NCBI GenBank assembly: GCA_013003295.1
Contig: JABDJV010000394.1
Location: forward strand, 1-39,676
Direction of reading: 5' to 3'
Length of the DNA: 39,676 nt
DNA from: Pyrinomonadaceae bacterium
GTDB taxonomy: Bacteria > Acidobacteriota > Blastocatellia > Pyrinomonadales > Pyrinomonadaceae
The translations under genes were made by a program, and so were the position numbers. Every line of letters begins with the position of its first letter. Within the stretch, counting starts at the first letter, position 1. The notes beneath the pieces are model-generated. The model was given only the letters and a program-made list of their open reading frames with translations. It made no database searches and had not been told where the DNA came from. Shown here piece by piece: positions 3,998 to 34,715 of this stretch.

Positions 3998-4084
3998 TCG
4001 CCGAAGGTGACATATTTAACAGCCAAAGGTACGGCGTTTCACCGCAACCCTAGGCTATTCTCGTTGTCGCTTTCAGCGACATGA
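3998..4084. repeat. Dispersed repeat 'CCGAAGGTGACA', copy 1
   Basis: Begins TCGCCGAAGGTGACATATTTA, continues through a GGTACGGCG...CCGCAACCCTAGG hairpin region, and ends with the palindrome GTCGCTTTCAGCGAC. The same order of blocks recurs at 4848-4945, so this is a mobile or amplified intergenic element and not a gene remnant. Confidence 0.7.
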
Positions 4085-4122: not shown

Positions 4123-4728
4123 CTAAACGGGCTTCTTATCCTTTAAATGCCTCGTCGTCTCTTCAGTGACGGAAGAAAATTCTTGTCGGGCTGATGGGGG
4201 CATTAAGAGCTCATTGGTTGTCGAGGCAACACGATCGGGATCTTTCGTTCCGGGTGCATCCAGGAGATCTTCAGCTTTCGAATCCTCGCTGGGAAGCGAA
4301 AAATGCACACCGTTTACGAGCAGCGCCACGCCGACGCACAAGGTCACTAACCCGAAGGCCGCCGCAATAAACATCTCTTCTTCTACAAAAATTCCTGCCA
4401 AAAGAAATCCGATCGCAATTCCGACCCCGACAAAAGACACAATACTGCCATTTCGAATCCGCCGCATTTTTCTTTCTTCCGGCGTTTCAAGAAATTTCTC
4501 CACTTCCGGCAGGATCTTTTTGGCAAACTTGCTTAGGTCGCTGGAGGATTCGGTCCTTTGAATTTTGGCTGCGAGCGCGCGTCCGATCTCCTCGCGCGCT
4601 GACACCGCCGAGGCCGTAAATTTTTCAGGACCTTCCAACGCCGTAGTGACGGAACCCAGATCGGTGCCGCAAGACCTGCAATATTGATTTGAGTTATTGT
4701 CCTTTAAGCCGCAACTCGGGCAAAACAT
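4123..4728 (-). CDS. Zinc-ribbon membrane protein (paralogue of 19190-19645)
   Basis: 201 aa. The N-terminus has a zinc-ribbon with two CxxC pairs (Cys3/Cys6 and Cys17/Cys20). A soluble, charged, helical stretch follows, then two hydrophobic segments at roughly residues 93-140 that should span the membrane, then a polar tail. The tail contains TTNELL...SSVTEETTRHL, which matches the tail of the zinc-ribbon protein at 19190-19645 (TTNQL...ASVVENTTRTL). The shared ends make these two paralogues. Function is unknown; the zinc-ribbon probably mediates a protein or nucleic-acid contact on the cytoplasmic side. Confidence 0.8.
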   Translation of the reverse strand: MFCPSCGLKDNNSNQYCRSCGTDLGSVTTALEGPEKFTASAVSAREEIGRALAAKIQRTESSSDLSKFAKKILPEVEKFLETPEERKMRRIRNGSIVSFVGVGIAIGFLLAGIFVEEEMFIAAAFGLVTLCVGVALLVNGVHFSLPSEDSKAEDLLDAPGTKDPDRVASTTNELLMPPSARQEFSSVTEETTRHLKDKKPV

Positions 4729-5163
4729 AGTGTCTCTCCAGTTTTTCTTGGTTAACTTCTAAAATAAATACGCTATTTGATAAATATAGTTCGCAACGAC
4801 TCCGCTTTTCAATCCATAACGATTTTCACTGACAAATAATATTCCTGTCGCCGAAGGTGACAGATATTATAGCCCAGGGTAAGGCGATTAGCCGCGACCC
4901 TGGGATGGTTCGGAGTCCAAACCGACGCTGAAAGTGTCGAACCATTTAGTTGGGGTATGAGGTCAGAATGATTCGGAGTTATGTTCGACTCCTTCAGAGT
5001 CGGATCTATGTTTTTAACCTGTCCCTCATCTCAATCGCTTTACCCTTGGCTTGTATCGATTTTCTATATCGCTTTCAGCAAAGGGAGTTTGTCGATTGAC
5101 GCTACGGCACATGTTTAAATTGACCCTTGCGATTTGTGGGTATGAGGGAGCATACCTGGGCGG
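4729..5163. other. 435-bp intergenic region rich in palindromes
   Basis: No credible coding region. It holds repeat copy 2 of the CCGAAGGTGACA family (4848-4945). After that come further short inverted or near-palindromic pieces (GACTCCTTCAGAGTC at 4988-5002; a partial TCGCTTTCAGC near 5070) and two similar GGTATGAGG(T/G) stretches (near 4955 and 5139). The left end includes the upstream region of the zinc-ribbon gene. Confidence 0.6.
4848..4945. repeat. Dispersed repeat 'CCGAAGGTGACA', copy 2
   Basis: Shares TCGCCGAAGGTGACA with copy 1, then CAGGGTAAGGCG...GCCGCGACCCTG, a well-paired hairpin. It ends with the palindrome CGACGCTGAAAGTGTCG, equivalent to GTCGCTTTCAGCGAC of copy 1. It is better conserved in its central hairpin than copy 1. 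Confidence 0.7.
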
Positions 5164-5721
5164 CTATATTTTTGTGACTATGTCGCCGGTTCGAATTGTA
5201 CCCTCCTGAATCACCTTTGCGTTGATCCCTCGCAAGTGGAGTTTCTTGCCTATTTCGGAATTTACAAATTTCATCGCTTCTAAACCAAAACGCTCGACAA
5301 ACTTTTTGCAGCCCGTGTGCGGTATCGGGGTAACTTCAATGACCGCTGATCCGATCTCAAGTCGCGCTCCGGGTGGAAGATTTTCATCGCTTAGATCCAG
5401 ATCGATGTAAAGTTGGTCGCCCGCGAGCTGCCATCTTGCCTTTTCTTGCGCGACCAAAGCGGTTGCGCGCGAATTCATGATATTCAGCTGCATTTCAGGG
5501 TGTCCGAATCCGTCGTTTGTACGGGAACTGCCGCGGGTTTTCCAGTTATCTCCAACGAGCCCGGCATCTTTATCCAGCTGTCCTTCCTTGAGGACCTCGC
5601 GTTCATTAATTTCGGGACGTCTAACTATCAATTCGAGCAAACCGTTGTTTTTCGGAGCTTGCTTGATCAGGTCCAATCCCGCTTCAAGTTCTTCATTTGT
5701 TAGGTGCCTGATATCAGTCAT
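5164..5721 (-). CDS. MOSC domain protein
   Basis: 185 aa covering a single MOSC (molybdenum cofactor sulfurase C-terminal) beta-barrel domain. The conserved cysteine of the family is present in TPIPHTGCKKF, preceded by ARLEIGSAVIEVTPIPH and followed by the typical GINAKVIQEGTIRTGDIV ending. MOSC proteins bind the molybdenum cofactor or carry sulfur and often act in detoxifying reductions such as YiiM/mARC. The exact substrate here is unknown. It lies 20 bp downstream of the exported protein gene at 5742-6707, so the two may be co-transcribed. No molybdenum cofactor genes are nearby. Confidence 0.85.
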   Translation of the reverse strand: MTDIRHLTNEELEAGLDLIKQAPKNNGLLELIVRRPEINEREVLKEGQLDKDAGLVGDNWKTRGSSRTNDGFGHPEMQLNIMNSRATALVAQEKARWQLAGDQLYIDLDLSDENLPPGARLEIGSAVIEVTPIPHTGCKKFVERFGLEAMKFVNSEIGKKLHLRGINAKVIQEGTIRTGDIVTKI

Positions 5722-5741
5722 AAACTCTTACTATCCGAAAG

Positions 5742-6707
5742 CTAATGTCGCGTATATCGCTTCCATGGGTGTTTTCCGTGGAAAAAGTTTGTGAAGCTTT
5801 GAAAAGGAGTTATAAACGTACGCAGGAGTCGAACGCTCCTCCGGCTCCTTCTTTTTTCGAGCCATCCTTTAAGGATATATTTGTCGATGACGTCTTCCCC
5901 GATCAAAACCAGAGTGCCAGCCGTCGGAGTAATAACTAAATCGACCCATCCCATACGGTTTGGTCCCACCCTGTCGTAAAGGCCGACGTTCCCGATCGAG
6001 GCTTCACTGATGGGACCAAGCTCAAACTGAGTGCTCCAAGCTGCGGACCAGGCCATCGCCTTCGCGCGGCTTTTCCAATATTCCTTCGACCGGCCGAATT
6101 CTTGCCGTCGTGATCTTTCGCTGTTGTTAATAAAAATCCTACCGGTTACTGCTCCCTGCATTGGGTGGGCAACATAATTTGTGAAGACACTGTCGCCATC
6201 CCGCCATTTTCCGAGGTTTTTGACCGATCTTCCCCAGTCACGGAAAAATGGTCCTTTGATCTCTCTTCGAGTCTTTTTTTGGAGCATTCGCAGGCTCTGC
6301 TGAACTCCGAGGAAGTATAAGGATTCGACGATAGCAGTTTTCCAATGAAACTTATCGCCTGCGTTCGTCTGAGGTTTGAGCGACTTTCCGGAAAAACTCT
6401 TCGATTTAACTTCCTCCAGAATGTCGATCTTTTTTGGTTTGAGCGGTGAGAATTTCGCCGCGGGGACGGATTCCGGCTTGAGTTCTGCCAGCTTTTTGTT
6501 CAAATTTGTTCCCGGACTCTTTTCTTCAGCTATGTTTTCAGCGCTCGAAAATACTGGCGAAGGATCCTCTTCTACGGAAGCGGCTGGCGTCCGATCGTTT
6601 GCCTCCAAAGTCTCGTTTTTGGCAGGATTCGGGTCCGGTTGAGATTCCTGTGAAAAGACACAAGTAAGACTTAAGAGGACAGTCATGATGAGCAATACTA
6701 ACTTCAT
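5742..6707 (-). CDS. Exported hypothetical protein
   Basis: 321 aa beginning with a Sec signal peptide (MKLVLLIMTVLLSLTCVFSQ). Then comes a low-complexity, Pro/Glu/Ser/Lys-rich linker to about residue 110, followed by a globular domain. That domain has FHWKTAIVESLYFLGVQQ, then TNYVAHPMQGAVTGR, which recalls the HP-x-x-G signature of DUF3943-type outer-membrane-associated proteins. Hydrophobic stretches (TPTAGTLVLIGEDVIDKY) suggest membrane contact. I cannot assign a function. It is followed after 20 bp by the MOSC gene. Confidence 0.65.
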   Translation of the reverse strand: MKLVLLIMTVLLSLTCVFSQESQPDPNPAKNETLEANDRTPAASVEEDPSPVFSSAENIAEEKSPGTNLNKKLAELKPESVPAAKFSPLKPKKIDILEEVKSKSFSGKSLKPQTNAGDKFHWKTAIVESLYFLGVQQSLRMLQKKTRREIKGPFFRDWGRSVKNLGKWRDGDSVFTNYVAHPMQGAVTGRIFINNSERSRRQEFGRSKEYWKSRAKAMAWSAAWSTQFELGPISEASIGNVGLYDRVGPNRMGWVDLVITPTAGTLVLIGEDVIDKYILKGWLEKRRSRRSVRLLRTFITPFQSFTNFFHGKHPWKRYTRH

Positions 6708-6820
6708 ATACTTTTGTAGGAATTAACTCTTCAACGTCAAAGTACTCGATATTATCTCTTTGAGATATGAAAGCAAACTCGCCATGGACAGGACCAAGCA
6801 CGAGTCAGGCTATGAGTATA

Positions 6821-7993
6821 TCAACGGGTTCTCGCCGGCACGAGCCGGAAGATCCGGTCATCCCGATCACTTGGTTTGCCTCGTCCGTCGCGGTTTGAGG
6901 TCGAAAAATATATGTAACCTTCCGGGCTGACCGCGACCTCGCGAATGCGCCCAAATTTTTTATTTAAAAGATATTCCTGGCCGATCACTTTTTGGTTTTG
7001 AATTACCAATCTAACGATCATTTTCCCTTTGAGAGTTCCAAAAAAGAAGTTGTTTTTATATTTCGGGAACGCATCGCCTCGGTAAAAGGATCCGCTAGCT
7101 GGCGCGACCGCTGGAGAATATTCTACCAACGGGGCCTGCATCCCTTTCTTTTTCATCTTATGGCTGATCTTGGCCCAACCGTAGTTTTTGCCACCCTCTA
7201 CGATATTTATTTCGTCGCCACCGGTACGTTTCTTAAATAGAGAAACCCCATCAATGAAACTTGGTCCGTGCTCGGTTTGAAACATTACACCGGATTCAGG
7301 ATGCCAGTCCATTCCTTGCGCATTACGGTGGCCGAAACTCCAAATCTCCGGGCGGGCATTTTTTCTGTCTACAAATGGATTGTCTTCCGGGACGCTTCCG
7401 TCATCATTCAATCGAAGCGTCTTCCCATTTATCGAACTAAGTTTTTGCGCGCGCTTTTGTTTAGTTGCGTCACCGGTAGTGATGTAGAGCTTACCGTCCT
7501 TGGGACCGAATCCCAGACGGGTTCCCGCATGAAATTTTGCCGCCGGTATTCGTTCGATGATGGTTTTCCGGTCCGCTAGTGTGTTGTTCGTTTCCCGGTA
7601 CCGGCTGACGCGAACAAATTTGTCACCCGCGTTTTCATAAACGTATGCGAAGTATAAAAGTTGGTTCTCGGTAAAATTTGGATGAAGAACGATTCCCATC
7701 AGCCCGGTTTCGCTTGAGAGTTTAACGTCCGGCAGGGTAAAAAGAGGCTTTTCGCGCAATGTTCCGCGCTCGATCACCCGAATTCTCCCAGGTCTTTCGG
7801 TGAAGAATATTCTTCCGTCCGGGGCAAAAGCAATTGACCAGGGAACTTCCAGGTTTTCCGCGACCGTTTCAACCAAGAATTCAGAGCGGTCGGCCGGACG
7901 AGGAATATCAGAATCATCCAGCGTAATTTGTTGCGGGCAAACAGCATTTGGGATCAAAGATACTACCACAAAAATCAAGATCTTTAGTTTCAT
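6821..7993 (-). CDS. PQQ-dependent sugar dehydrogenase (YliI/Asd-like)
   Basis: 390 aa exported six-bladed beta-propeller of the glucose/sorbosone dehydrogenase family, which oxidises aldose sugars in the periplasm with pyrroloquinoline quinone. There is a signal peptide of about 20 residues. Family motifs appear in order: VPWSIAFAPDGRIFFTERPG, ETGLMGIVLHPNF, FHAGTRLGFGPKDGKLYITTGD (with the catalytic-type His), GHRNAQGMDWHP, EHGP and GGDEINIVEGGKNYGW. No PQQ biosynthesis genes lie in the window, so the cofactor would have to come from elsewhere. It starts 39 bp after the serine hydrolase stop and may be co-transcribed with it. Confidence 0.92.
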   Translation of the reverse strand: MKLKILIFVVVSLIPNAVCPQQITLDDSDIPRPADRSEFLVETVAENLEVPWSIAFAPDGRIFFTERPGRIRVIERGTLREKPLFTLPDVKLSSETGLMGIVLHPNFTENQLLYFAYVYENAGDKFVRVSRYRETNNTLADRKTIIERIPAAKFHAGTRLGFGPKDGKLYITTGDATKQKRAQKLSSINGKTLRLNDDGSVPEDNPFVDRKNARPEIWSFGHRNAQGMDWHPESGVMFQTEHGPSFIDGVSLFKKRTGGDEINIVEGGKNYGWAKISHKMKKKGMQAPLVEYSPAVAPASGSFYRGDAFPKYKNNFFFGTLKGKMIVRLVIQNQKVIGQEYLLNKKFGRIREVAVSPEGYIYFSTSNRDGRGKPSDRDDRIFRLVPARTR

Positions 7994-8032
7994 ATTAAGT
8001 GTTGAATTCCAAAACCCCGCAATTTTATCGTG

Positions 8033-9265
8033 CTAAAGAAGACTCTCGTAAACCTTGCCTAAGAATTCATCGATCTTAGAATTCTCGATCCAGCGCGCGA
8101 CGATAACCAGGTCATTCTTACGGTCGATGTAAACGATATTGGTGCCGTTGCCCAAAAAGGCGATCGTACCCTCCGGAGCTTTTGGATAAAGTTTCCGATC
8201 AGTGTTGAGGAAAAAGTTCATAAAGCCGTAGGTCGGACGTGCTCCTGTGGGTGTCTCGGCCAGTTTAAGAAATGCTTCTGAGAGGATTTGCCGGCGTTTC
8301 CATTTACCGTTTCTTTCGATGAGCAAGCCAAAGCGTGCCATATCACGGGCATTGATAAACATCCCGCCGCCCCAATGTCCGCCGCCGCTGACGGATTGAA
8401 TTATCTTTCCGTCCATCAAAACATAGGAGTTCTCATAGCCGTGCCAACGCCAGGTCTGTGAGGCACCGATCTCATCCATGATATTGTTTTTTAAGATCTG
8501 CGGGAGCGGCTTTCTCCACATATTCAGCGCAGCCAGGGCGAGCAGATTTACACGAACATCGTTATATTCGAAAGCGGCACCGGGCGCATTTCGTTTTCTC
8601 GTTAGCCAGGTTTTGCGATCGCGGGCGGGCCTGTCTGCCCAGTCAGGCTTGCCCCAGAGAGTACCCTCCCAGTCGCTGGTTTGGCGCAGAAGCGAATCCC
8701 AATCTATTCTTTTATTGTGTGCGGATTCGAATAGTGCAAGAAATTTAGATTTACCCAGTTTGTTTGGATCATCCGCCCTTTGAAGCGGATCATATCGAGA
8801 TACGGGGGCCATCTCTTTGTAGACGGGTGCTTTTAAATCTTTGATGATCTGTTGGTCATAGGCCAATCCAACCGTCGCAGTAAGAAAACTCTTGGTGACC
8901 GAATGGGTCATATCTACCCTAAACGGTTCACCCCATTCCGCGACGATATAACCATTCCTGATAATGATTCCGGTCATCGCGCCGCGGACCTTAAACGGGC
9001 CGGTCGCTTCGCCAAAAGGTTCTCTTCCAAAGGTCATCGCTTGACCGAGCTCCTGGTCTCTTGGAGCCGTTGCCTCATTCGATTTTGCGAATTCGATCGC
9101 GGCATTGAGCTTTGCCGCGTCAATCCGCACTTGTCCTGGACGTTTTGTATTCCAGTTATCAGCAGCTGGAAAATAATCCCTCTGTGCGTAAACTGCAGAA
9201 GAATAGACGACTGCAACTAAGATGCTTGCTGACAGAAGCCGAATGCGATGGGTTGATTTCTTCAT
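8033..9265 (-). CDS. Serine hydrolase, beta-lactamase class C / esterase family
   Basis: 410 aa exported penicillin-binding-protein-like hydrolase. The signal peptide spans about residues 1-28 (ending SSAVYA before Q). The catalytic SxxK is Ser122-Val-Thr-Lys125 in HSVTKSFL. A YN-containing motif (FEYNDVRVN) stands where the class C YxN box is expected. The third box is HWGGG in SGGGHWGGGMF. The family includes esterases and D-aminopeptidases as well as beta-lactamases, so resistance activity is not implied. A 15-bp perfect hairpin ends immediately before the start codon and leaves no obvious Shine-Dalgarno. The PQQ dehydrogenase gene follows after 39 bp. Confidence 0.88.
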   Translation of the reverse strand: MKKSTHRIRLLSASILVAVVYSSAVYAQRDYFPAADNWNTKRPGQVRIDAAKLNAAIEFAKSNEATAPRDQELGQAMTFGREPFGEATGPFKVRGAMTGIIIRNGYIVAEWGEPFRVDMTHSVTKSFLTATVGLAYDQQIIKDLKAPVYKEMAPVSRYDPLQRADDPNKLGKSKFLALFESAHNKRIDWDSLLRQTSDWEGTLWGKPDWADRPARDRKTWLTRKRNAPGAAFEYNDVRVNLLALAALNMWRKPLPQILKNNIMDEIGASQTWRWHGYENSYVLMDGKIIQSVSGGGHWGGGMFINARDMARFGLLIERNGKWKRRQILSEAFLKLAETPTGARPTYGFMNFFLNTDRKLYPKAPEGTIAFLGNGTNIVYIDRKNDLVIVARWIENSKIDEFLGKVYESLL

Positions 9266-9302
9266 AAAAATGGCTGAAAACAGATGGGTTTTCAGCCATT
9301 TT
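9266..9302 (-). terminator. Perfect 15-bp hairpin between HDOD gene and serine hydrolase start
   Basis: AAAATGGCTGAAAAC and GTTTTCAGCCATTTT pair perfectly around AGATGG. On the minus strand the 3' arm ends in TTTTT, which runs straight into the ATG of the serine hydrolase. It looks like the terminator of the REC-HDOD gene (stop about 25 bp upstream) but could also control translation of the next gene. Confidence 0.75.
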
Positions 9303-9326
9303 ACAATGAGTTAAATTAAAATAAAA

Positions 9327-10541
9327 TCAGGCTGCGACCGGTTCCTCTTCATCAACAAAAAAGTGTACAAACTCTTCGTGCCATTCGGGTACCTTTTCGA
9401 GGAGACCGAGTTTCGCAAGATAGGGAACATCGCAATTCTGCAGTCGCGGGGTTTGAGCTCTTGGATCGCGTGAATTATGAAAGACGTCTGCCATGTGTAC
9501 GGCAGTAAGTGCGCTGAACGAAGGCGTTAGGTATTCGCTGGGTTTGTGGTGATAAGCTACCGCCTCTACTACTGTCCAGGGGATCCCCCAAAGGCTTAAC
9601 AAATAGGCTCCGATCTCTGCATGCGTTGCCCCAAATAACTCTAATTCCGCATCGAGCAGAGAGATCTCCTGCTCCTTGGCAAAAGCACGCGATCTCGAAT
9701 ATTCCTCAGGCATGTTATAGGCGAGTACGAGCTCACCGATATCGTGAACGAGTCCGGCGGTAAATGCATCGCCTGCGGTTTCCGGTTTTTCCGTGGAAGC
9801 GAGGAGTTTTGCCATTGCTCCGACGGATTCGCTGTGAGCACGAAATTCTTCGACCATCCTGATATCGATGATCTTTTTGTCAAATTGCGCAAATATTCCG
9901 AGCGAGAGCGTAAGCGAGGTTATCGTATCTATACCTAAGTACATTACGGCGTCGGTTGCATTTGAAACATGACGCTGCAGGCCAAAAAAGGCAGAGTTAA
10001 CGATCTGAAGGATCTTAACCGTCATCCCTATGTCTTTCTCGACGATCTGCCCGATATGTTTGATCGATGGATCTGCCGAATTTACCTCATCCATTAGCTC
10101 TGAATAAAGTGTCGGCAAGCTGGGAACCGTGTTTAGTGTCGAAACCATTTCGCGCAGCGAATCACGTTTTAGCATATCCCGCAGCGCACAGGTTTTTCGT
10201 ATCGTCGACTGAATCGTTTTGACGTCGCTCGGTTTGGCAAGATATTGGTGGGCGGTTCCAAGTGATTTCATAACCATTGCCGTTTCTTCATAACCGGTAA
10301 GAATGATCCTGACGACATCAGGATGCCGGACCTTTGTATTTCTGAGAAGTTCGACTCCGTCCATTCCCGACATTTTCATATCAGAGATCAATACGTCGAA
10401 AGTTTCTTCGCCGAGTTTCGTCAGGGCTTCGATCCCGTCAGACGCGATCGATGTTGTCCATCCTGGATTTGATAATGCGGTCTCGGCTTGCATTCGTTTT
10501 AGAAAAACCGGGTCGTCGTCGACGAAGAGAATGTTTAGCAT
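9327..10541 (-). CDS. Response regulator with HDOD output domain
   Basis: 404 aa two-domain signalling protein. Residues 1-120 form a receiver domain with acidic pocket Asp8-Asp10, phospho-acceptor Asp54 in ISDMKMSGMDG, switch Thr82 and Lys103 in YLAKPSD. Residues about 130-330 are an HDOD domain (VPSLPTLYSELM..., ILQIVNSAFFGLQ, GLVHDIGELVLAY, EIGAYLLSLWGIPWTVVEAVAYHH). HDOD lacks the full catalytic metal set of HD-GYP enzymes and usually works as a signalling scaffold. Proteins with this architecture are common in systems controlling motility, stress and cyclic-di-GMP. No partner histidine kinase is next to it. Confidence 0.93.
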   Translation of the reverse strand: MLNILFVDDDPVFLKRMQAETALSNPGWTTSIASDGIEALTKLGEETFDVLISDMKMSGMDGVELLRNTKVRHPDVVRIILTGYEETAMVMKSLGTAHQYLAKPSDVKTIQSTIRKTCALRDMLKRDSLREMVSTLNTVPSLPTLYSELMDEVNSADPSIKHIGQIVEKDIGMTVKILQIVNSAFFGLQRHVSNATDAVMYLGIDTITSLTLSLGIFAQFDKKIIDIRMVEEFRAHSESVGAMAKLLASTEKPETAGDAFTAGLVHDIGELVLAYNMPEEYSRSRAFAKEQEISLLDAELELFGATHAEIGAYLLSLWGIPWTVVEAVAYHHKPSEYLTPSFSALTAVHMADVFHNSRDPRAQTPRLQNCDVPYLAKLGLLEKVPEWHEEFVHFFVDEEEPVAA

Positions 10542-10745
10542 GGTTGTTAACTCCGTTCAAAGCGCGTGTGATAAATAAGTGTGGGAGGATAAGAAAACGG
10601 TGAAAGTTCTGCCTCAAAATACCTATCGGCAATATTTCGGAATACTTAACTAAAATTATCGCTTATTTCTTGCCGTACCAGTCAGTTTAGAGGACGAAAT
10701 GATCTGGAACTGTTTAAAGAACCTGAGTTTGAGGTCTTTCCCGAT

Positions 10746-11210
10746 CTACTTTGCGGATCTGTGGAGCATTTCAACGGAAAATTCCCTACTCTTGGCGAGT
10801 TTTCCATTAAGGAGAATATCTACCCGGTATGATCCAACGATCCAGTCGTTTTCAGGTTTCCCGGTAAAGGTCACCGCATCTTCTCCTTTCTTGGTTTTAT
10901 AACTGATGGAAATGATTTTCGTGTTTGGGCGAAGACCCTTTACTTTTACGGCGATAAGATTTAGCTGCACTGACGTTGGTACGGTTGAGATAAGGTCAAC
11001 ATAGCAGAATATGGGAACGTCGTTTGTCGAGAAAATTTCGATATTTTCCTCGATGTTTCCCTCCGAATCCTGGCGGGCCAAAGTAAGTTTCTTAACTCCG
11101 TTCTTTTCGGCACTTTTGCTGAATCCGGTCTTTTCCGTTTGAGCCACGGCGCTAACGACTGCTAAAACGCACAATAATGCAGCAAGGATAAACTTCATCA
11201 ACTCCTCCAA
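10746..11210 (-). CDS. Small secreted hypothetical protein
   Basis: 154 aa. The likely start is the internal ATG giving MKFILAALLCVLAVVSAVAQ, a textbook Sec signal peptide; the ORF-track start adds MEEL. A GGAGGAG-like sequence (CTCCTCC on the plus strand near 11202) lies a few bases upstream of that internal start and favours it (coding end near 11198). The mature part is about 130 residues, beta-rich, with one Cys, and contains GLRPNTKIISISYKTKKGEDAVTFTGKP. No known domain is recognised. It lies about 200 bp upstream of the REC-HDOD gene on the same strand. Confidence 0.65.
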   Translation of the reverse strand: MEELMKFILAALLCVLAVVSAVAQTEKTGFSKSAEKNGVKKLTLARQDSEGNIEENIEIFSTNDVPIFCYVDLISTVPTSVQLNLIAVKVKGLRPNTKIISISYKTKKGEDAVTFTGKPENDWIVGSYRVDILLNGKLAKSREFSVEMLHRSAK

Positions 11211-11344
11211 TTATCCAAAAGTTATTTAAAGAGGTGCGGGAAGTTTGAGATTGGTTGTATCGGGATTCATTCGACTTTTACTTACCTGGGTTCGATCGTC
11301 GGTGCAAAGCAAAGACTCTGAAAAAGGTTTAAGCGTTTCGAACC

Positions 11345-11857
11345 CTATTTTTTCGCATAGGCGAGTTTTACCACGCCGTTCTCGAATTTCTCGGTATCGA
11401 TCAGTTTCAGATCGATTTGATTCTCAAACGGCAGAAAAAGCGGCAAACCCTTACCGAGCAGAATCGGGTGAACAAATAGGAAGATCTCATCAACAAGGTT
11501 TTTGTCTAGAAACTGCCGGATCAGATCGCCCCCGCCGACGAGCCAAATATCCTTGCCTTTCTTTCGTTTCAACTTCGACGCGAACTTTTCCAGATCTTCG
11601 GATATGTATTCAAGCTCATCAATTTCGCTTTCCTTAATTGTCTTGGAGAAAACATAATTCTTCATTCCCTTATAGTGGGTTTGACCAAGCTCGTTTCCCT
11701 TTTCGATCGTTTTTCGTCCCATCAAAACTGTATCGACGGAAGCGTAAAACTCCGCCATTCCGTATTCGCCATCGATAAAAAGCCAGTCGACGTCTCCATT
11801 TTCACGGGCAATATAGTTGTCGAGGCTGTTGGCTATATATAACTTTATTTTTCTCAT
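11345..11857 (-). CDS. Dihydrofolate reductase-fold protein (RibD C-terminal family)
   Basis: 170 aa cytosolic protein of the RibD_C/YyaP-YwjB family, which has the dihydrofolate-reductase fold and binds NADPH. The N-terminus MRKIKLYIANSLDNYIA is the typical first strand. VDTVLMGRKTIEKG is the conserved MGRxTxE-like segment. IWLVGGGDLIRQFLDKNLVDEI is the nucleotide-binding GGG motif, and HPILLGKGLPLF is the closing signature. True folate or riboflavin activity cannot be deduced; many members are uncharacterised reductases. It is divergent from the DUF4440-like gene with 40 bp between starts, so promoters must overlap. Confidence 0.88.
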   Translation of the reverse strand: MRKIKLYIANSLDNYIARENGDVDWLFIDGEYGMAEFYASVDTVLMGRKTIEKGNELGQTHYKGMKNYVFSKTIKESEIDELEYISEDLEKFASKLKRKKGKDIWLVGGGDLIRQFLDKNLVDEIFLFVHPILLGKGLPLFLPFENQIDLKLIDTEKFENGVVKLAYAKK

Positions 11858-11897
11858 CTACTGATTATATCCGAAATCGTGCTATTTTAATCTCACT

Positions 11898-12344
11898 ATG
11901 AAAATCCTGAATTTTGCTTTGACCTTGATTTTGATGCTCACCAGTATCGTTTTAGCCGGGCCTGATAAGAAAAATACAAAGGTCGAAACCGCTGTAAAAA
12001 AAGTTCTTGCTGATCAGACGGCGGCCTGGAATAAATGCGATATCGAAGGGTTTATGCAGGGTTATTGGAAATCTGAAGAATTGAGTTTCACATCTGGAAA
12101 TAAAAATACCCGAGGTTGGCAGGCGACCTTTGATAACTACAAAAAAGGTTATGATTCCTGCGAGAAAATGGGCAAGCTATCTTTTTCCGAATTGGATATA
12201 ACCGTTTTGAGCAAGAAATCTGCAATGGTTAGAGGGAGATTCCTGCTTGAGCGGAAAAGTGATAAACCTACCGGATTATTTACTCTGATTTTTAGAAAAT
12301 TCAAGGAAGGGTGGAAAGTGGTGCACGATCACACGTCGGTTTGA
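11898..12344 (+). CDS. Exported DUF4440/SnoaL-like (NTF2 fold) protein
   Basis: 148 aa with an N-terminal signal peptide (about 20 residues, ending SIVLAG). The remainder is a cystatin/NTF2-like cone domain. VKKVLADQTAAWNKCDIEGFMQGYW is the first helix, followed by GWQATFDNYKKGY and a final strand pair ending GLFTLIFRKFKEGWKVVHDHTS, which is diagnostic of the DUF4440/SnoaL group. The family is a general small-ligand-binding or isomerase scaffold, and no specific function can be given. It is convergent with the Gfo/Idh/MocA gene. Confidence 0.82.
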   Translation: MKILNFALTLILMLTSIVLAGPDKKNTKVETAVKKVLADQTAAWNKCDIEGFMQGYWKSEELSFTSGNKNTRGWQATFDNYKKGYDSCEKMGKLSFSELDITVLSKKSAMVRGRFLLERKSDKPTGLFTLIFRKFKEGWKVVHDHTSV

Positions 12345-12366
12345 GTTGGTTTGCTGCGGCCAAAAA

Positions 12367-13452
12367 TTAGACTATTCTCGTCATTTCTCCGCTCCTGTCC
12401 GATTCCCGGCAAGCGTCTAAAACTTTTTGAACTTTGACGCCGTCTTCAAAAGTCGCGGATTCGGGGATCTGTGTTCTTCCTTCTTTTAATGCTGAAACGA
12501 TCTCTTTTGAAAAACTCATAAACCCCCGGGACCAACCGCCGACCTTGGTATTCGGCGGCGTATCGCCCAAATCAATCTTGATTTCGTCCCATTTGTTTGA
12601 ACCCATTCTGGCGAACCAAAGTTCGCCGCTTTCGCCAACGATTATCGAGCCTTCGGTTCCAAAGATCTTGCAGTTGAAATCGTATTTTCCAGCTTCCACT
12701 ACTGACAAAGAGACCGTTCCACTCGAATCTTGCGTTAACTCTGAATCTGCAAACTTCAGAATAATATTGGTTTCGTCATCGGCCGTAACAGCGCGTTTGA
12801 TGCCTTCAGAATCCATCCGCTCCTTTACATTCGTTTTTAAGAAACAAAAAACGTCTGTTATTTCAGTATCTAGGAACCAATGAAAACCATCGATCGCATG
12901 TGATCCGATCGCGCCAAGTGCACCGCCGCCGGCGTCTATGTCTGACCACCAGTTCCAGGGGATATTTGCTTTTCCTCGCGAAGCGTTTCGAAACATCTGT
13001 TTGAAATGGAAAACTTTTCCGATTTTTCCATCGCGAATCATTTCGCGTGCTTTTTGTCTTCCGTTCAGAAAACGCAATTCGTGGTCGATCAAAGCTAACA
13101 AGCCTTTCCCCCGGGCGGCTAAGGCCATCTCTTCAGCCTCAGCGGTGTTCATTGCCATCGGTTTTTCGCACAATACGTGCTTATCGTGTTCGAGAGCAAA
13201 CAGCGTCATTTCGTGGTGCAGATTTGGCGGTGTCGTTATGCTGAGCAGATCTATATCTTCACGCCTTGCGGTCTCGCGCCAATTGTCAGTAAAATGACCG
13301 ATTCCGAATTCAGCGGCTGTCTTTTCAGCATTTGCCAAATTGGCACTCGCGACCGAAACTACCTGCGTGTCTTCACAGTTTAAAAACGCCGGTATTTGGG
13401 TTAAGCGTGCAAATCCGGTTCCGATAACTCCGATCTTCACCTGCTTTTTCAT
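12367..13452 (-). CDS. Gfo/Idh/MocA family NAD(P)-dependent oxidoreductase
   Basis: 361 aa from the chosen start MKKQVKIGVIGTGFA. The ORF track begins 23 residues earlier, within the intergenic region and terminator tail, which is unlikely. The Rossmann GxGxxA-type motif is at residues 8-14. CEKPMA is the conserved EKP motif of the family, with the catalytic Lys. GSHAIDGFHWFLDTEI carries the HxxD/H pattern of the substrate pocket. It oxidises or reduces a sugar or cyclitol; the substrate is unknown. No sugar operon surrounds it. The PilZ gene lies upstream on the same strand but a terminator separates them. Confidence 0.9.
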   Translation of the reverse strand: MKKQVKIGVIGTGFARLTQIPAFLNCEDTQVVSVASANLANAEKTAAEFGIGHFTDNWRETARREDIDLLSITTPPNLHHEMTLFALEHDKHVLCEKPMAMNTAEAEEMALAARGKGLLALIDHELRFLNGRQKAREMIRDGKIGKVFHFKQMFRNASRGKANIPWNWWSDIDAGGGALGAIGSHAIDGFHWFLDTEITDVFCFLKTNVKERMDSEGIKRAVTADDETNIILKFADSELTQDSSGTVSLSVVEAGKYDFNCKIFGTEGSIIVGESGELWFARMGSNKWDEIKIDLGDTPPNTKVGGWSRGFMSFSKEIVSALKEGRTQIPESATFEDGVKVQKVLDACRESDRSGEMTRIV

Positions 13453-13480
13453 ATCGAAAATTAGAACACGAATGTAGTTT

Positions 13481-13515
13481 AAAAAACAAAAACGCAAGGA
13501 ATTCGATTCCTTACG
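13481..13515 (-). terminator. Terminator after the PilZ gene
   Basis: On the minus strand CGTAAGGAAT and ATTCCTTGCG form a 10-bp stem with one mismatch and a 3-nt loop, followed by TTTTTGTTTTTT. It is located between the PilZ stop and the Gfo/Idh/MocA start. Confidence 0.8.
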
Positions 13516-13538
13516 CAACACTTTTTTATTGAAAAATC

Positions 13539-14000
13539 CTAACTTTCTTTGATTCCGAGTTCGAGCGCGCCGCCCTCAAATCTCTTGTTCTTCAAACACT
13601 CTTTGTAGATCTCCTGATCTCCTGCGGACATTTTTAGGATCTTTGCACCGATCAGATATTTGCTCGCCGAAACATGTTGGCCGATCTGCTTATATCTTTG
13701 GCCCATCAGCTGCATTTTAACGATTCCATTTGGAAGGCTTACTTCTGCATTTAGAATGCGGCCTTCACCAACAAGGTAATTTTCCTGTAACCGAATCGAA
13801 TCAACTATAAACCCTACTCCCGTTTCGCTCAGATCCCGGGTTTCGCCGCGAACAAATACATCCTTCAAAGGCATTTGCAGGCTTCCGGTTGTCGTGTCCG
13901 GCTCGATCGAGATCTTGACCGGAACCCGCAGACCCTTTCTCTTCGAGACTGCACGTTTCGACATAGATTTCCGGAATTTATTTGTCCATTTTCGTATCAT
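13539..14000 (-). CDS. PilZ domain protein (cyclic-di-GMP receptor type)
   Basis: 153 aa cytosolic protein with one PilZ domain. The N-terminal RxxxR motif is present as Arg21-Lys-Gly-Leu-Arg25, followed by the D/NxSxxG motif as DLSETG at 56-61. These two motifs are the cyclic-di-GMP binding determinants, so ligand binding is likely. The basic N-terminal 20 residues (RKWTNKFRKSMSKR) form an extended helix. There is no fused output domain, so it would act by binding a partner. Together with the REC-HDOD protein 3 kb away it hints at second-messenger signalling, but there is no operon link. Confidence 0.88.
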   Translation of the reverse strand: MIRKWTNKFRKSMSKRAVSKRKGLRVPVKISIEPDTTTGSLQMPLKDVFVRGETRDLSETGVGFIVDSIRLQENYLVGEGRILNAEVSLPNGIVKMQLMGQRYKQIGQHVSASKYLIGAKILKMSAGDQEIYKECLKNKRFEGGALELGIKES

Positions 14001-14112
14001 CTAATGTTCTTAGGGGTAGCATCGGCTGCCAAAGTGCAAAGATTATAGCGCTTTTAAGTCAGTATTCAAAGCCAATAACCGTTTAAAACCAAAAGGTTTA
14101 GTTAATTTCTTA

Positions 14113-15066
14113 TTAATTTTTCAAAGGCCTTCCCTTGAGATCTTTGAAGATCAGCTCAGGCTGTTTGTCTTTTGTGATCTTCAAGGCAAAAGAGAGTTTA
14201 CCCGTTTTACCATATTCGGCGGGTGTGGCGACCGCGGTATAGGTCGTATGATCTTCCGCGAGCAAAACGTCATATTTGTAGCCGGTCGTTAATGGAGTTT
14301 TCGCATCTTGCGGCACAAAACCTTTATTTATAAGCGTTTCAAGATTCCCAAACTTTCCGTTGTTTTTCATCGAGTAGATCATTTGCGCTTTCCCGATCCG
14401 ATCCAGCATCGCCTTGGCCTCTTTGTGGTGAACATCCATTCGAAGGGCAAAGAAATAGTTTTTGCCTTCGCGCTTCGCCATTTTTTCGCCGGCACCGTCG
14501 GCGACCAATACGATCCAGATATCTTTGTCTTTGCGTAATTTAATTTCGGCGGTTTCGAGCTTTTTTGTTTCTTCGTTTGGGAATTTTACCGTCACCGTTG
14601 CAGTATCTCCGGTCACGATCTCACCATTTATCGGCATATTTTCGGGAACTCTTTGTGCCAAAAAGCCGAAATCAACACCAAGGTCCTTCATTTCGCTGTC
14701 GGTCAGGCCTTCGATCGCCGGCCGTAAATTGGTAAGCATGATCGCCTCGCGAAACTGCTTGGCCCGCAGGCGTTTGTAGAAAACCCTGACGGTATCTGCC
14801 GGTGAATTCTCCTTGATCTTTATCATCGCGCCTTTTGAGCGCTCTTTATCGGCGATCTCAATTCTCTCGGCCTCGGTCTTCGGTTCAGATTTTGAGACCG
14901 GAACTTTTTCACTTTTGACCTCGGCCGCAGACTCTGTTTTCGCTTTTGATCCGCAGGATGCTGCAAGAAATATTAGCAGCAGTAGAAATGCGGTCGATGT
15001 GATCGGATTAAAGAAGAGTCTGTTAATCGAAAGGTTGGATACCATAAAAATTCTCCGGGAAGCCAT
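14113..15066 (-). CDS. Lipoprotein with NTF2-like and C-terminal pilin-like region
   Basis: 317 aa putative lipoprotein. The hydrophobic signal ends with lipobox LAAS-C (residues about 35-39). A second in-frame ATG seven residues in (MVSNLSINRLFF) would give a more normal signal peptide length. A charged linker follows, then SPADTVRVFYKRLRAKQFREAIMLTNLRP, resembling DUF4878/NTF2-like domains. The last ~100 residues contain AKAMLDRIGKAQMIYSMKNNGKFGNLETLINKGFVP, a pattern seen in type IV pilin-like and DUF2950-type proteins of Acidobacteriota. Function unknown. Confidence 0.7.
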   Translation of the reverse strand: MASRRIFMVSNLSINRLFFNPITSTAFLLLLIFLAASCGSKAKTESAAEVKSEKVPVSKSEPKTEAERIEIADKERSKGAMIKIKENSPADTVRVFYKRLRAKQFREAIMLTNLRPAIEGLTDSEMKDLGVDFGFLAQRVPENMPINGEIVTGDTATVTVKFPNEETKKLETAEIKLRKDKDIWIVLVADGAGEKMAKREGKNYFFALRMDVHHKEAKAMLDRIGKAQMIYSMKNNGKFGNLETLINKGFVPQDAKTPLTTGYKYDVLLAEDHTTYTAVATPAEYGKTGKLSFALKITKDKQPELIFKDLKGRPLKN

Positions 15067-15275
15067 GTGCTGGAAATGAAAAGAAAAAGAAATGGGAATC
15101 TAAATTAGGATTTTGTTTTGGCAGGAGATGCATCGTCAAAGTGCGACACTAAAGACATTATACCTCGTAAAACTGTGTTGGTAAACATCTAATGTGCCCT
15201 TTCTTCCAGAAAAATTTCAAAAAAGTGGAAAATAGTTTAAAATCACGAAACCAAACACACAATCGAGTGGAAAAA

Positions 15276-17627
15276 ATGATAAAAAAAACTTTTGCTGCGT
15301 CTTTGATTCTTTGCGGGTTGATCCTGTTCCTGGTGGTTCCGGGTTTTGCGAAAAAAGCGGTTCCTGAGCCTAAAGAAGTCCTTGGATTTGTGCCCGGCGA
15401 TGATTACAAACTTGCTTCGTGGGCTAGCATTGTCGAGTATTTCAAAAAGCTCGACGCGTCTTCTGATCGAGTCATCCTCAAGGAAGCCGGTAAAACAACC
15501 GAAGGGAAACCTTTTGTTTACGCGCTTATATCCTCACCTGAGAATTTGAAGCGAATAGACTACTACAGGGGAATCAATGACAAGCTGGCCGATCCACGAT
15601 TGATAAACCGAAGCGATAAAAAGGCGGAAATGCTTATCAAACAAGGCAAGACCTTTGTCGCAATCACCCACGGGATCCACTCCACTGAGGTTGGATCAAC
15701 CCTTTCTTCAACGCTGACCGCGCACCGGCTGGCATCATCCGACGAGCCCGATATTAAGAAGATCCTCGATGAAACTATCATCGTAATGGTTCCAAGCTTA
15801 AATCCGGACGGGGTTGATATTGTAAAAAATTGGTATGACAAAACGCTTGGAACAAAGTTTGAGGGAACCCGCCCGCCGGAGCTATATCAAAAATATGTCG
15901 GGCACGATAACAACCGCGATTGGTATGCGTTTACACAGGTGGAAACGCAACTCACCGTAAAGCACATACATAACCAGTTTCATCCGCAGATCGTTCACGA
16001 CATACACCAGCAGGGATCAAACGGCGCGAGGTTTTTTGTGCCGCCGTATCTAAATCCGGTCGAACCAAATGTACCGAAAGAAATTATTGAGGGATATTCC
16101 GAGATCGGAAACTATATCGCCGGACAAATGAGAAAGGCCGGTATGAACGGAATCACGACCGGTTCGACCTATGACGCCTGGACACCCGCGAGAGCCTACT
16201 CGCATTACCACGGCGGTGCGAGAATTTTATCGGAAACTGCGTCGGCAAGATTGGCTTCGCCGATCACCGTCGACTATAAGAAAATGACCAGCCGCCGCGG
16301 GTTTGATGTTTTTAAAGTCTCTGAAAACTATTCGCCGCTTTGGACGGGCGGAGAATGGGGAATGCGCGATATCACCAACTACATGACCACAGGCGCATTT
16401 TATTTAATGAAACACGCTGCTGAAAATCGCGAAAAGTGGCTTAAGCGGTTTTATAGGATCGGGAAAGACGCGACGCAAAAACGGGAAAAGGGAAAGCTGT
16501 TTGCGTACGTGCTTCCGTTAACTCGGGATAAGAATGGAAACTACTCAGCTGAGTTTTACCGAGCGAATGGATTGCAGGAAAAACTGAGATTGGGAGGCGT
16601 TCAGGTACACACGGCAGAGTTTGATTTCACAGTTAACGGCGTCAAATACAAAGCCGGAAGCTTTGTGATACCAATGGCCCAGCCCTACGGTGGATTTGCA
16701 AAAGCCATGCTTGAAAACGGCGGATATCCGAATCTAATTGACAAAGAGGGAAATCCCATTCCCCCGTATGACGTGACGTCTCATTCCCTTTCACTATTGA
16801 TGGGTGTTACGGCAATGCCGATTTTTGAACCGGTGACGTATAGGAAAAAATTTAAAACCGGTGGCGGTTTTGGAAGGGGCAGTAATTGCGGATGCGGCAG
16901 CAAAGTAAGATTTGGGCTTTTTCGTTCCAGTATTCCCAGTAAGGATGAAGGATGGACCAGGTGGGTACTCAAAAATTACGGGAAAGCGACAAGTGTCTGC
17001 TGTTTTGAGTTTGAGCCGATCAGAGAAACCGAAGCCAGGTCTCAAATTTTAACCGGGACACGCGGCATCATTTTTCCCGATCAATCGCCAAACCAAATTC
17101 TAAACGGCTACCGCGAAGGCCGAATGCCAAAAGAGTATACGGGAGGACTCAAAGGCAAAGGAGTCGAAAACCTCAAGCAGTATGTCGCGGGCGGCGGCAC
17201 TCTTGTTTTCCTAAACCGCTCCTCGGATTTTGCGATCGAGCAATTTAATTTGCCGGTGAAAAACATCGCCAAGGATTGGAAACGAAAGGACTTTTTTATA
17301 CCCGGCTCGATTTTAAGAACGGAGTTGGATAAGTCGCATCCAATAACAAAGGGAATGCCGGAGAAATCCATCGCCTGGTTTGAGCGCTCGCCGGTTTTTG
17401 AATCGACCGACGATTCGCGGGTGAAGGTGATCGGAAAGTATCCTTCCGATTCGGATAAGATCCTGCTTTCGGGTTGGGCCTTAGGAAAAGAAAAGATCGC
17501 CGGAAAGGCCGCTTTGGTTGAAGTAAAAATGGGTAAAGGGAAGATAATTTTGTTTGGCTTCCGCCCGCAATACCGGGGCCAATCGCTGGCGACATTTCCG
17601 CTTTTGTTCAATTCGGTTTCAAATTGA
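15276..17627 (+). CDS. Exported M14-family zinc carboxypeptidase
   Basis: 783 aa from the ATG at 15276, which begins a Sec signal peptide (MIKKTFAASLILCGLILFLV). The ORF-track start 28 residues upstream would hide it. The peptidase domain has the zinc site HSTE (His135, Glu138) in THGIHSTEVGS, the substrate Asn/Arg region DNNRDWYAF and a histidine pair in VHDIHQQ (His241, His244). SETASAR may hold the catalytic glutamate. After residue ~540 comes a Gly/Cys-rich hinge GGGFGRGSNCGCGSK, then a C-terminal domain resembling a class I glutamine amidotransferase-like fold. It probably degrades peptides in the periplasm or outside the cell. Confidence 0.9.
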   Translation: MIKKTFAASLILCGLILFLVVPGFAKKAVPEPKEVLGFVPGDDYKLASWASIVEYFKKLDASSDRVILKEAGKTTEGKPFVYALISSPENLKRIDYYRGINDKLADPRLINRSDKKAEMLIKQGKTFVAITHGIHSTEVGSTLSSTLTAHRLASSDEPDIKKILDETIIVMVPSLNPDGVDIVKNWYDKTLGTKFEGTRPPELYQKYVGHDNNRDWYAFTQVETQLTVKHIHNQFHPQIVHDIHQQGSNGARFFVPPYLNPVEPNVPKEIIEGYSEIGNYIAGQMRKAGMNGITTGSTYDAWTPARAYSHYHGGARILSETASARLASPITVDYKKMTSRRGFDVFKVSENYSPLWTGGEWGMRDITNYMTTGAFYLMKHAAENREKWLKRFYRIGKDATQKREKGKLFAYVLPLTRDKNGNYSAEFYRANGLQEKLRLGGVQVHTAEFDFTVNGVKYKAGSFVIPMAQPYGGFAKAMLENGGYPNLIDKEGNPIPPYDVTSHSLSLLMGVTAMPIFEPVTYRKKFKTGGGFGRGSNCGCGSKVRFGLFRSSIPSKDEGWTRWVLKNYGKATSVCCFEFEPIRETEARSQILTGTRGIIFPDQSPNQILNGYREGRMPKEYTGGLKGKGVENLKQYVAGGGTLVFLNRSSDFAIEQFNLPVKNIAKDWKRKDFFIPGSILRTELDKSHPITKGMPEKSIAWFERSPVFESTDDSRVKVIGKYPSDSDKILLSGWALGKEKIAGKAALVEVKMGKGKIILFGFRPQYRGQSLATFPLLFNSVSN

Positions 17628-17996
17628 AACTGACCTCCAGTTTTACTAATCCGTCCCGTTCGGGACGTTTGATAATAGCCCCGTCATTTATGGTGGGGTT
17701 TCGCGTCATAGGGATTTTGAGTCCCATCGGGACTGCTGACCCAAGACCGAATTCAGCCGTCCCAATGTGACTGTTGATTCCTGTCAACGAAACCCAACGA
17801 TGAATCGGTGGGCTATTTTCACAAGGTCCCTTGCGGGACCAGAAAGTAATAAATCCTCGCGACTTCGTTTTATCCAAAATCTCCGGGCGCTCGCTGGAGG
17901 CCTTCTATTTCTTGCTCAAAAGTTTGCTTATTGAAACATCAGGCTCTTTTTTCTCGTTAAATTCTACTAAGTCGCGCGAAAATAAGGAGCCTTTTA
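17628..17996. other. Intergenic region dominated by a symmetric repeat element
   Basis: 369 bp without a credible gene. It contains the ~190-bp element at 17652-17840, then a short AT-rich stretch with the promoter region of the DUF2306-like gene. The 89-aa minus ORF at 17608-17877 and the 83-aa plus ORF at 17831-18082 cover repeats or overlap real genes and are rejected. Confidence 0.6.
17652..17840. repeat. ~190-bp symmetric MITE-like palindromic element
   Basis: The element is bounded by short palindromes CGTCCCGTTCGGGACG (17652-17667) and GGTCCCTTGCGGGACC (17825-17840). Inside, the left arm 17671-17708 (ATAATAGCCCC...GGTGGGGTTTCG) reappears inverted as the right arm at about 17784-17820 (CGAAACCC...GGTGGGCTATTTT). 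A third small hairpin GTCCCATCGGGAC lies in the centre (17721-17733). It encodes nothing. Confidence 0.75.
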
Positions 17997-18485
17997 GTGA
18001 TCTATACAAGCAGCATCGGATTGTTTCATCTGATCGTATCGATTCTTGCCTTGATCTTCGGGACCTGGGTGATCGCAACTGAAAAGGGTACGGCGATCCA
18101 CAAAAAAATCGGCTATCTGTACGCCGCTTGTATGACTGCGGTGATCGTTACCTCGTTTATGATGTACCGCCTGTTTGGCGGATTCGGGATTTTCCACGTT
18201 GCGGCAGTGATAAGCGCGATCTCACTTCTTGGCGGGATGGTCCCCGTGATCTTGCGAAAACCAAAGAAATCCTGGCTTAGTCTTCATTTTAGTTTTATGT
18301 TTTGGTCGGTGATGGGGCTTTATGCAGCATTTGCTGCGGAGATATTTACGAGAATTCCCCGGATGAGATTTTTTTGGATGGTTGGCGTGGCGACCTTGCT
18401 TGTAATGGTCGCGGCAAATATTGCATTTGTAGTTTACAAAAAACGCTGGGAGAAACTCGAATCGGTCTATATCGAGGGAAAATGA
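17997..18485 (+). CDS. DUF2306-like integral membrane protein
   Basis: 162 aa with four to five hydrophobic helices. It starts at a GTG with an AAGGAG Shine-Dalgarno 7 nt upstream (17984-17989). HLIVSILALIFGTWVIATEKGTAIHKKIGYLYAACM has the His and IHKKIGYLY pattern of the DUF2306 family, followed by SLHFSFMFWSVMGLYAAFAAEI and a last helix before a charged tail. Family function is unknown; some relatives are thought to handle heme or quinone-like ligands, but that is not visible here. Next gene starts 56 bp downstream on the same strand. Confidence 0.8.
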   Translation: MIYTSSIGLFHLIVSILALIFGTWVIATEKGTAIHKKIGYLYAACMTAVIVTSFMMYRLFGGFGIFHVAAVISAISLLGGMVPVILRKPKKSWLSLHFSFMFWSVMGLYAAFAAEIFTRIPRMRFFWMVGVATLLVMVAANIAFVVYKKRWEKLESVYIEGK

Positions 18486-18541
18486 AAACCGTGTATAACG
18501 GAACATTTTCTGATAAACTGTCGTAAAAACAGACTGAAGCG

Positions 18542-19180
18542 ATGGCAAAAAAATTCGATACAAATCCGCTTGATCCCAAGTTTCCGGAAAGTGTGAAAGA
18601 CACGCAGCCGGAGCTTGAGACCGTGACTCTGCCGAAATCGGGGGGGAAGACGACGAAGTTTGCCGAGCCGCTTGAGACAGAAGAGCAAACCAGAAAACTC
18701 GGCGCAACGGAATTTGAAGGCGTTAATCCTAATTACGGTAATGGGAATGCGGAAATCGCGCCATATCAGCCGCAGCAATTCTACGAAGAAGCTCCTGCCG
18801 AAACAAAAACCCACAATATCGGAAGTATTAGTTTGCCCGAAAATGTCTTAACCGCCTTGCCCTATATTCCGTTTGCGTACATTGGCATTATTGCGGGTGT
18901 TATCGAGCTTGTTTTTATACCGAAAAGCGAGCCGAAAGTTCGCTATCATGCAGCTCAGGGATTGGCGGCTCAGATTGCCGTTTGGATCGTTTTGACCGGG
19001 CTCGGTTTTCTTAGCTGGGGTACGGATGTGGCGGATGTCGCCGCGACGATCTTTAGTATAGTGACGAGCATTATGCTAATGATATTCGCGTATAAGGCTC
19101 TCAGAGGAAAACCGATTCACATCGAATCGGTGCAGGATTTGACAGATTGGATCGAAGAAAAGATCACGCCTAAAAGTTAA
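18542..19180 (+). CDS. DUF4870-like membrane protein with long acidic N-terminus
   Basis: 212 aa. Residues 1 to ~95 are hydrophilic and low-complexity (rich in Glu, Pro, Thr, Gln). They are followed by a DUF4870-like three-helix membrane module: NVLTALPYIPFAYIGIIAGVIELVF, then KVRYHAAQGLAAQIAVWIVLTGLGFL, then a helix ending FAYKALRGKP. RYHAAQ corresponds to the conserved RFHAxQ loop. The C-terminus ends in a short amphipathic piece with DWIEEKITPK. The gene precedes the zinc-ribbon gene by 9 bp, so they are surely co-transcribed and may interact at the membrane. Confidence 0.8.
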   Translation: MAKKFDTNPLDPKFPESVKDTQPELETVTLPKSGGKTTKFAEPLETEEQTRKLGATEFEGVNPNYGNGNAEIAPYQPQQFYEEAPAETKTHNIGSISLPENVLTALPYIPFAYIGIIAGVIELVFIPKSEPKVRYHAAQGLAAQIAVWIVLTGLGFLSWGTDVADVAATIFSIVTSIMLMIFAYKALRGKPIHIESVQDLTDWIEEKITPKS

Positions 19181-19189
19181 AATATAAAA

Positions 19190-19645
19190 ATGACCTTTTG
19201 CTCAAACTGCGGAAACGAAGTGAAACAGGGATTGAATTATTGTAATCGCTGTGGAGGAAAGATTCAGGGAGAAGACGAGTCGGAATCGACGTCGGTCGCA
19301 AAGAGCCTTGCGACTTCGCTTGGCTATATCGGCGCTGCCGGATTTGGTGTCTTAATAGGAATAATAGCAATTCTGACGAAGAGCGATATTGATCCTCCCG
19401 CGTTGGTTGCCGTGATCGCTTTTTATCTCGTGGCGTTATTTGGAATCTGCTTTTCAATTCTTCAAATGATTCCAAAGGTATCCGGGAAGCGGGATCAATC
19501 TCGAACGACTTCACCGGACCATGCGAGTCCGGCTCAGCTCGATTCACCCACGACGAATCAGCTTGAAGAAGCGAAAGTTGCCCCGGCAAGTGTCGTTGAG
19601 AATACAACGCGAACCCTTGATAAGGTCCCGATCGAGAGAAAATAG
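19190..19645 (+). CDS. Zinc-ribbon membrane protein (paralogue of 4123-4728)
   Basis: 151 aa. The N-terminal zinc-ribbon has Cys4/Cys7 and Cys18/Cys21. Two hydrophobic helices follow at about residues 45-65 and 70-92 (YIGAAGFGVLIGIIAILT and ALVAVIAFYLVALFGICFSIL), then a polar tail. The tail reads TTNQL...ASVVENTTRTL, matching the tail of the 4123-4728 protein, which marks the pair as paralogues despite divergent cores. It sits in a plus-strand operon with the DUF4870-like gene upstream and a 42-aa membrane peptide downstream. Function unknown. Confidence 0.82.
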   Translation: MTFCSNCGNEVKQGLNYCNRCGGKIQGEDESESTSVAKSLATSLGYIGAAGFGVLIGIIAILTKSDIDPPALVAVIAFYLVALFGICFSILQMIPKVSGKRDQSRTTSPDHASPAQLDSPTTNQLEEAKVAPASVVENTTRTLDKVPIERK

Positions 19646-34495: not shown

Positions 34496-34637
34496 TTTTC
34501 TCTCCGTAAAAAAGTAATTTGGGGGGTAGCCCAATGCAGTATTTAGCAATGTGCGTGCCAAAAGCGGGAAATTGAGGTAAACCCCGTGTTTACAGGCTTA
34601 TAGGAGAATCTGGATGAAAGCTGATCTAAATGGATGC

Positions 34638-34674: not shown

Positions 34675-34715
34675 CCCATGAACGGAATTTGGGTGAAAGC
34701 TATTAACTTCTGGCA

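Follow-up and report, generated by a model that had tools for sequence, protein, structure and literature searches.

Why should two proteins encoded far apart on a bacterial chromosome end in nearly the same tail? This question is raised by the window analyzed here, a 39,676-nucleotide stretch of DNA from a Pyrinomonadaceae bacterium whose genome is available as a draft of 501 contigs and is 85% complete. The initial annotation described the products of 4123-4728 and 19190-19645 as unlinked proteins with the same zinc ribbon and two helices, matching tails (TTNELL...SVTEETTRHL versus TTNQL...SVVENTTRTL), and divergent middle parts, and it regarded the tail as a possible docking peptide or sorting signal. 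Here, we reexamined these proteins and searched for their tail in related genomes.

Two unlinked genes encode zinc-ribbon membrane proteins with matching tails

The descriptive part of that account was borne out. The two genes, referred to as paralogues A and B, lie about 14.5 kb apart on opposite strands, and the open reading frames (ORFs), the cysteine motifs, and a model of B agree on the zinc ribbon and the two helices of their products. The features are as follows.

4123..4728, minus strand: paralogue A, a zinc-ribbon/two-helix/C-tail protein of 201 aa (ORF listing; own ortholog group, which reaches other families)
4669..4722, minus strand: zinc ribbon of A, C3-C6...C17-C20 (sequence; DZR 17.8 bits, below the Pfam cut-off)
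4207..4221, minus strand: upstream T-x-x-L copy in the A tail, TTNEL (tail alignment and +3 counts)
4144..4173, minus strand: tail core of A, SVTEETTRHL, with predicted phospho-Thr192 and Leu195 at +3 (DNA pattern and tail set)
19190..19645, plus strand: paralogue B, a zinc-ribbon/two-helix/C-tail protein of 151 aa (ORF, tree, and model)
19199..19252, plus strand: zinc ribbon of B, C4-C7...C18-C21 (sequence; Zn_Ribbon_1 21.2 bits, below the Pfam cut-off)
19274..19498, plus strand: two-helix hairpin of B formed by residues 29-103 (helices at 29-64 and 69-103 in model m25987d1a2e41)
19550..19564, plus strand: upstream T-x-x-L copy in the B tail, TTNQL (tail alignment and +3 counts)
19589..19618, plus strand: tail core of B, SVVENTTRTL, with predicted phospho-Thr140 and Leu143 at +3 (DNA pattern and tail set)

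Both proteins start with the pattern CxxCG-x9-10-CxxCG. All four cysteines are present, and the Zn_Ribbon_1 and DZR matches scored 14.7 to 21.2 bits against curated Pfam cut-offs of 25 to 27.3; the matches to DUF6249 and DUF4870 (hairpin and neighbouring gene) were also weak and below the curated cut-offs. None of these Pfam matches extends over the tail, and a Pfam profile search of both proteins found no FHA domain in A or B. Transmembrane segments were called from hydropathy, which gave two segments in 56 of 72 cases, and from one model. In the model of B (mean pLDDT, 74), the tail has low confidence and only a three-residue turn is predicted there, and the tail is predicted to be disordered in A and B. 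The two helices together with the Cys-rich N terminus suggest that it faces the cytosol.

When A was compared with B by BLASTP, the overall alignment was weak; the helix-to-tail region and the ribbon matched with E values of 1e-4 and 6e-4, respectively, in one single comparison. Identity reached 70% in the 10-residue core of the tail; it was 21% for the helical hairpin and 10% for the stretch that joins this hairpin to the ribbon.

Other features of the window were also noted. A repeat, TCGCCGAAGGTGACA..., lies on either side of the 4123-4728 gene (3998-4019 and 4848-4869); its two occurrences in the window compare with a chance expectation of 0.01, and it continues as an imperfect stem-like stretch. 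By eye, a minus-strand ORF at 30339-30785 resembles a small REP/IS200-type transposase, and two adjoining minus-strand ORFs at 34250-35412 resemble PqqD-type carrier-binding proteins, the second having a Cys-rich C terminus.

The tail is conserved in a multicopy family of Blastocatellia

Beyond what had been annotated, A and B proved to belong to a large family. At least six proteins with the tail are encoded in their own genome, where the core DNA pattern gave eight matches versus two for the reversed pattern. Zinc-ribbon membrane proteins account for six of the eight; of the others, one falls within a histidine kinase and one in a short frame that is spurious. A profile built from five own-genome members found 4 to 27 matches per genome in all 60 relatives (Blastocatellia, Acidobacteriota), counts to which ribbon proteins without the tail contribute. 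The family is multicopy, with some members in tandem, and its copy number follows genome size among ten genomes. Matches in public records came from Acidobacteriota, mostly from Blastocatellia and Pyrinomonadaceae.

With a stricter DNA pattern, 78 sites were found in 34 of 47 genomes of the class, compared with a single site for the reversed control. Elsewhere in the phylum (349 genomes), the same pattern gave 4 sites versus 3 for the reversed control, which is the level of chance; spread through the phylum was therefore rejected, and at this sensitivity the motif is restricted to the class. Four outlying loci (L020, L021, L184, and L191) were judged to be chance matches.

A tree of 91 proteins, in which the start codon of each row was set at the nearest Met before the ribbon, placed A and B in separate supported groups, each with members from other families of the class. 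Within each ortholog group, pairwise identity was 67 to 72% in the core and 21 to 38% in the hairpin and linker. By this phylogeny, A and B diverged long ago as paralogues, and each belongs to an ortholog group of its own. At one locus (L026), apparent adjacency of A and B orthologues was rejected, as the N terminus of the second gene assigns it to another paralogue group (C70 type).

These data bear on ordinary inheritance, by which A and B would be recent paralogues whose tails are yet to diverge. The two proteins are indeed homologous, and a multicopy family with tandem members is what such an origin would leave. Nevertheless, separate ortholog groups that reach other families, a core far more conserved than the hairpin and linker, and the presence of the motif in a protein of different architecture (see below) all speak against it. 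Recent duplication is ruled out as a sufficient explanation by the tree and the region-wise identities, and we consider this account hardly credible. The tail is selectively conserved, as had been proposed; the tree, the identities, and the pattern controls revealed neither loss in orthologues, nor chance similarity, nor recent duplication only.

The tail core is built around an invariant threonine

The core was read in 72 distinct tails. Its successive positions are Ser (71 tails), Val (70), Thr or Val (70), Glu or Asp (72), any residue, Thr (70), Thr (72), Arg or Lys (59), any residue, and Leu or Phe (71). The second Thr occurs in every tail and is never replaced by Ser; the residue at −3 from it is Glu or Asp without exception, and that at +3 is Leu in 66 tails, Phe in 5, and Pro in 1. 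The first Thr gives way to Pro, Ala, or Glu in some family members. All six serine codons are used at the first core position, and this variation in codons points to selection on amino acids. The distance from the core to the C terminus varies between 3 and 25 residues in the zinc-ribbon family, and in some members the entire core is present in two copies. These data indicated that the tail is a short linear motif, which, as read from the aligned sequences, takes the form [P]-x-S-V-[TV]-[ED]-x-x-T-[RK]-x-[LF]. No description of it was found in the literature (open-licence papers). Two loci (L134 and L135) encode family members with an additional N-terminal domain and the core twice in tandem, e.g., SVTEETTQLL...SEGTTQLL.

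A DUF4870-like neighbour carries the motif at its N terminus

The gene directly upstream of 19190 also encodes the motif, a point absent from the earlier description. Its features are listed below.

18542..19180, plus strand: DUF4870-like membrane protein, N-terminal tail with four T-x-x-[LF] copies (PF09685, 21.5 bits; cut-off of 25 not reached)
18560..18571, plus strand: T-N-P-L copy (KFDTNPLD); T-x-P/Q-L is found here in 22 of 22 relatives read
18620..18631, plus strand: T-V-T-L copy
18650..18661, plus strand: T-T-K-F copy (GGKTTKF)
18671..18700, plus strand: tail-core equivalent LETEEQTRKL (relatives: SVTEEQTRRF, SVTEEETRKF, SVTEDETQRF)

The 18542-19180 product has no zinc ribbon, and its alignment to the B product is confined to a hydrophobic stretch. 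In most of the near relatives read, the two genes are found close together, which is not the case in the distant ones. In the core of DUF4870-like proteins, the first Thr of the TT pair is Gln or Glu and the second is kept; together with the replacements seen in zinc-ribbon members, this identifies the second Thr as the critical one. That two differently built families share the motif, one at the C terminus and the other at the N terminus, argues for a common binding partner, and by this comparison the tail is a portable linear motif.

This arrangement separates the two functions first suggested for the tail. A sorting or degradation signal would fit the position of the motif near the C terminus in the zinc-ribbon family, but neither the variable C-terminal distance, nor the duplication of the motif in some members, nor its N-terminal place in the DUF4870-like neighbour is expected of one, and we regard such a signal as very improbable. 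The proposal of a docking peptide, on the other hand, is supported by the sequence conservation, class-wide recurrence, duplication, and presence in the neighbour family.

Threonine-based units recur in the tails outside the core

Apart from the core, 108 of 260 tail Thr residues (42%) have Leu, Ile, Phe, or Met at +3, compared with 10 to 19% at other offsets and with 39 ± 6 occurrences in shuffled tails. For Ser, the +3 figure is 13%. As the sequences are related, P values calculated from them are optimistic; a test on one representative for each of 11 clusters corrects for this in part (Thr, 12 of 29, versus Ser, 3 of 61; Fisher P = 4e-5). The +3 peak for Thr was absent (21%) from about 800 other genes sampled around the loci in the same class, as well as from the tails of other membrane proteins. 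It recurs in the N-terminal tails of DUF4870-like proteins from 22 relatives (46% for Thr, 9% for Ser). Thus, T-x-x-[LF] occurs as a repeated unit in the tails.

An unbiased tail screen returned as its top match a protein (L102, 5224-6162) whose zinc ribbon is of a different type (CPxC...FCLNDG); it has six T-x-x-hydrophobic units and, by eye, a single membrane helix and a C-terminal part that resembles TonB. This DGT-type zinc ribbon was considered as a third family and rejected, since three proteins gave no clear Thr +3 peak.

What kind of docking might these units serve? One reading dispenses with phosphate: SVTExxTRxL would be bound directly by a receptor specific to the class, perhaps the zinc ribbon of a different family member. 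Consistent with this, all core matches with a readable full ORF, barring those judged to be due to chance, fall in a zinc-ribbon protein or its DUF4870-like neighbour, and the conserved S-V-[TV] goes beyond known FHA requirements. Such a receptor would nevertheless leave unexplained why these tails contain further, recurring T-x-x-[LF] copies that lack SVTE and why Thr is never exchanged for Ser, and we think this reading rather unlikely.

The tail as a predicted phospho-switch

Phosphothreonine recognition by FHA domains has as its signature a Thr that is never Ser, together with a hydrophobic +3 residue. The +3 residue is crucial for FHA recognition, and Glu occurs near Thr in FHA self-peptides (PMC6733907). 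Moreover, Glu at −3 matches Glu-x-x-Thr(P), an in vivo motif linked to PknA/PknB in M. tuberculosis (PMC5845002). There is also precedent in a membrane protein whose cytosolic tail bears a phosphothreonine that is bound by an FHA protein with specificity for this residue (PMC3953482). The T-x-x-[LF] logic, which the initial annotation had not drawn, led us to a phospho-switch as the reading that we find reasonably probable: a Hanks-type kinase would mark the invariant Thr, an FHA domain would dock on it, and the membrane protein would serve as the anchor. In this mechanism, a Hanks-type Ser/Thr kinase would phosphorylate the second Thr of the tail, and the FHA domain would recognize phospho-Thr-x-x-Leu/Phe. 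The zinc-ribbon membrane proteins and the DUF4870-like neighbour would act as phospho-switched anchors with the tail on their cytosolic end, and the zinc ribbon could form a second end that binds protein or nucleic acid. We infer phosphorylation, FHA binding, and the anchoring role from the residue pattern of the tail.

Could phosphorylation act without an FHA reader, directly altering the charge or the oligomerization of the membrane protein? The acidic −3 residue would suit bacterial Ser/Thr kinase sites (PMC5845002; PMC6030727) in this case, too. However, Ser would serve a charge switch just as well, so that strict Thr and a hydrophobic +3 are more in keeping with a reader, and we hold a substrate of this kind to be improbable.

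Three known systems resemble the predicted phospho-switch in part. The N-terminal ETTS tail of GarA/OdhI in Actinobacteria is an STPK substrate read by FHA (PMC5448819; PMC6733907); the tails described here share with it predicted disorder, a TT pair, an acidic residue just before it, and a hydrophobic +3 position relative to the second Thr. GarA/OdhI are soluble and possess an FHA domain of their own, whereas here the tail sits on zinc-ribbon membrane proteins without FHA, and Glu lies at −3 from the second Thr rather than at −2. In the type VI secretion system of Agrobacterium, a Hanks kinase phosphorylates a Thr at the cytosolic terminus of the membrane protein TssL, to which an FHA protein binds (PMC3953482). 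TssL-pThr14/Fha is alike in involving a membrane protein, with the kinase and FHA steps being predictions in our case; it differs in that other proteins are involved, that a large multiparalogue family takes the place of one protein, and that type VI genes were not noticed in the vicinity of A and B. DgcB of Bdellovibrio, which combines FHA with a self-peptide, also has the hydrophobic +3, with Glu at −2 (PMC6733907). Recognition there occurs within one protein, whereas the partner of the tails described here would have to act in trans.

Both components are encoded where the family is found. The genome of A and B has 38 Hanks-kinase and 16 FHA domain matches, one of the latter fused to a zinc ribbon, and both domains are encoded in all ten Blastocatellia genomes tested (8 to 45 kinase matches each), which lends weak support because both are common. 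Family copy number was not significantly correlated with the number of kinases or FHA domains (Spearman, 0.20 and 0.26, respectively; ten genomes). In one genome, four of six family loci have FHA genes no more than 17 kb away (P = 0.001); proximity was not significant in three others. One locus (L075) encodes a 206-aa protein that combines a zinc ribbon with one FHA domain, a natural candidate reader of the tails. Another (L007, contig C216 of genome G000) encodes a Hanks-type kinase, about 544 aa long, that has an N-terminal ribbon-like Cys motif and three C-terminal zinc ribbons.

Taken further, the data raise the tentative possibility, which we put below an even chance, of a shared phospho-tail code in Blastocatellia, in which several zinc-ribbon membrane proteins per genome and a DUF4870-like protein would allow one or a few FHA readers to be recruited by Hanks kinases to many membrane sites. 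The predicted substrate site can be read from sequence, so that it would yield candidate Hanks-kinase substrates and a reader interaction that can be assayed. It may thereby offer a functional handle on two families without an assigned function, the zinc-ribbon hairpins and the DUF4870-like proteins.
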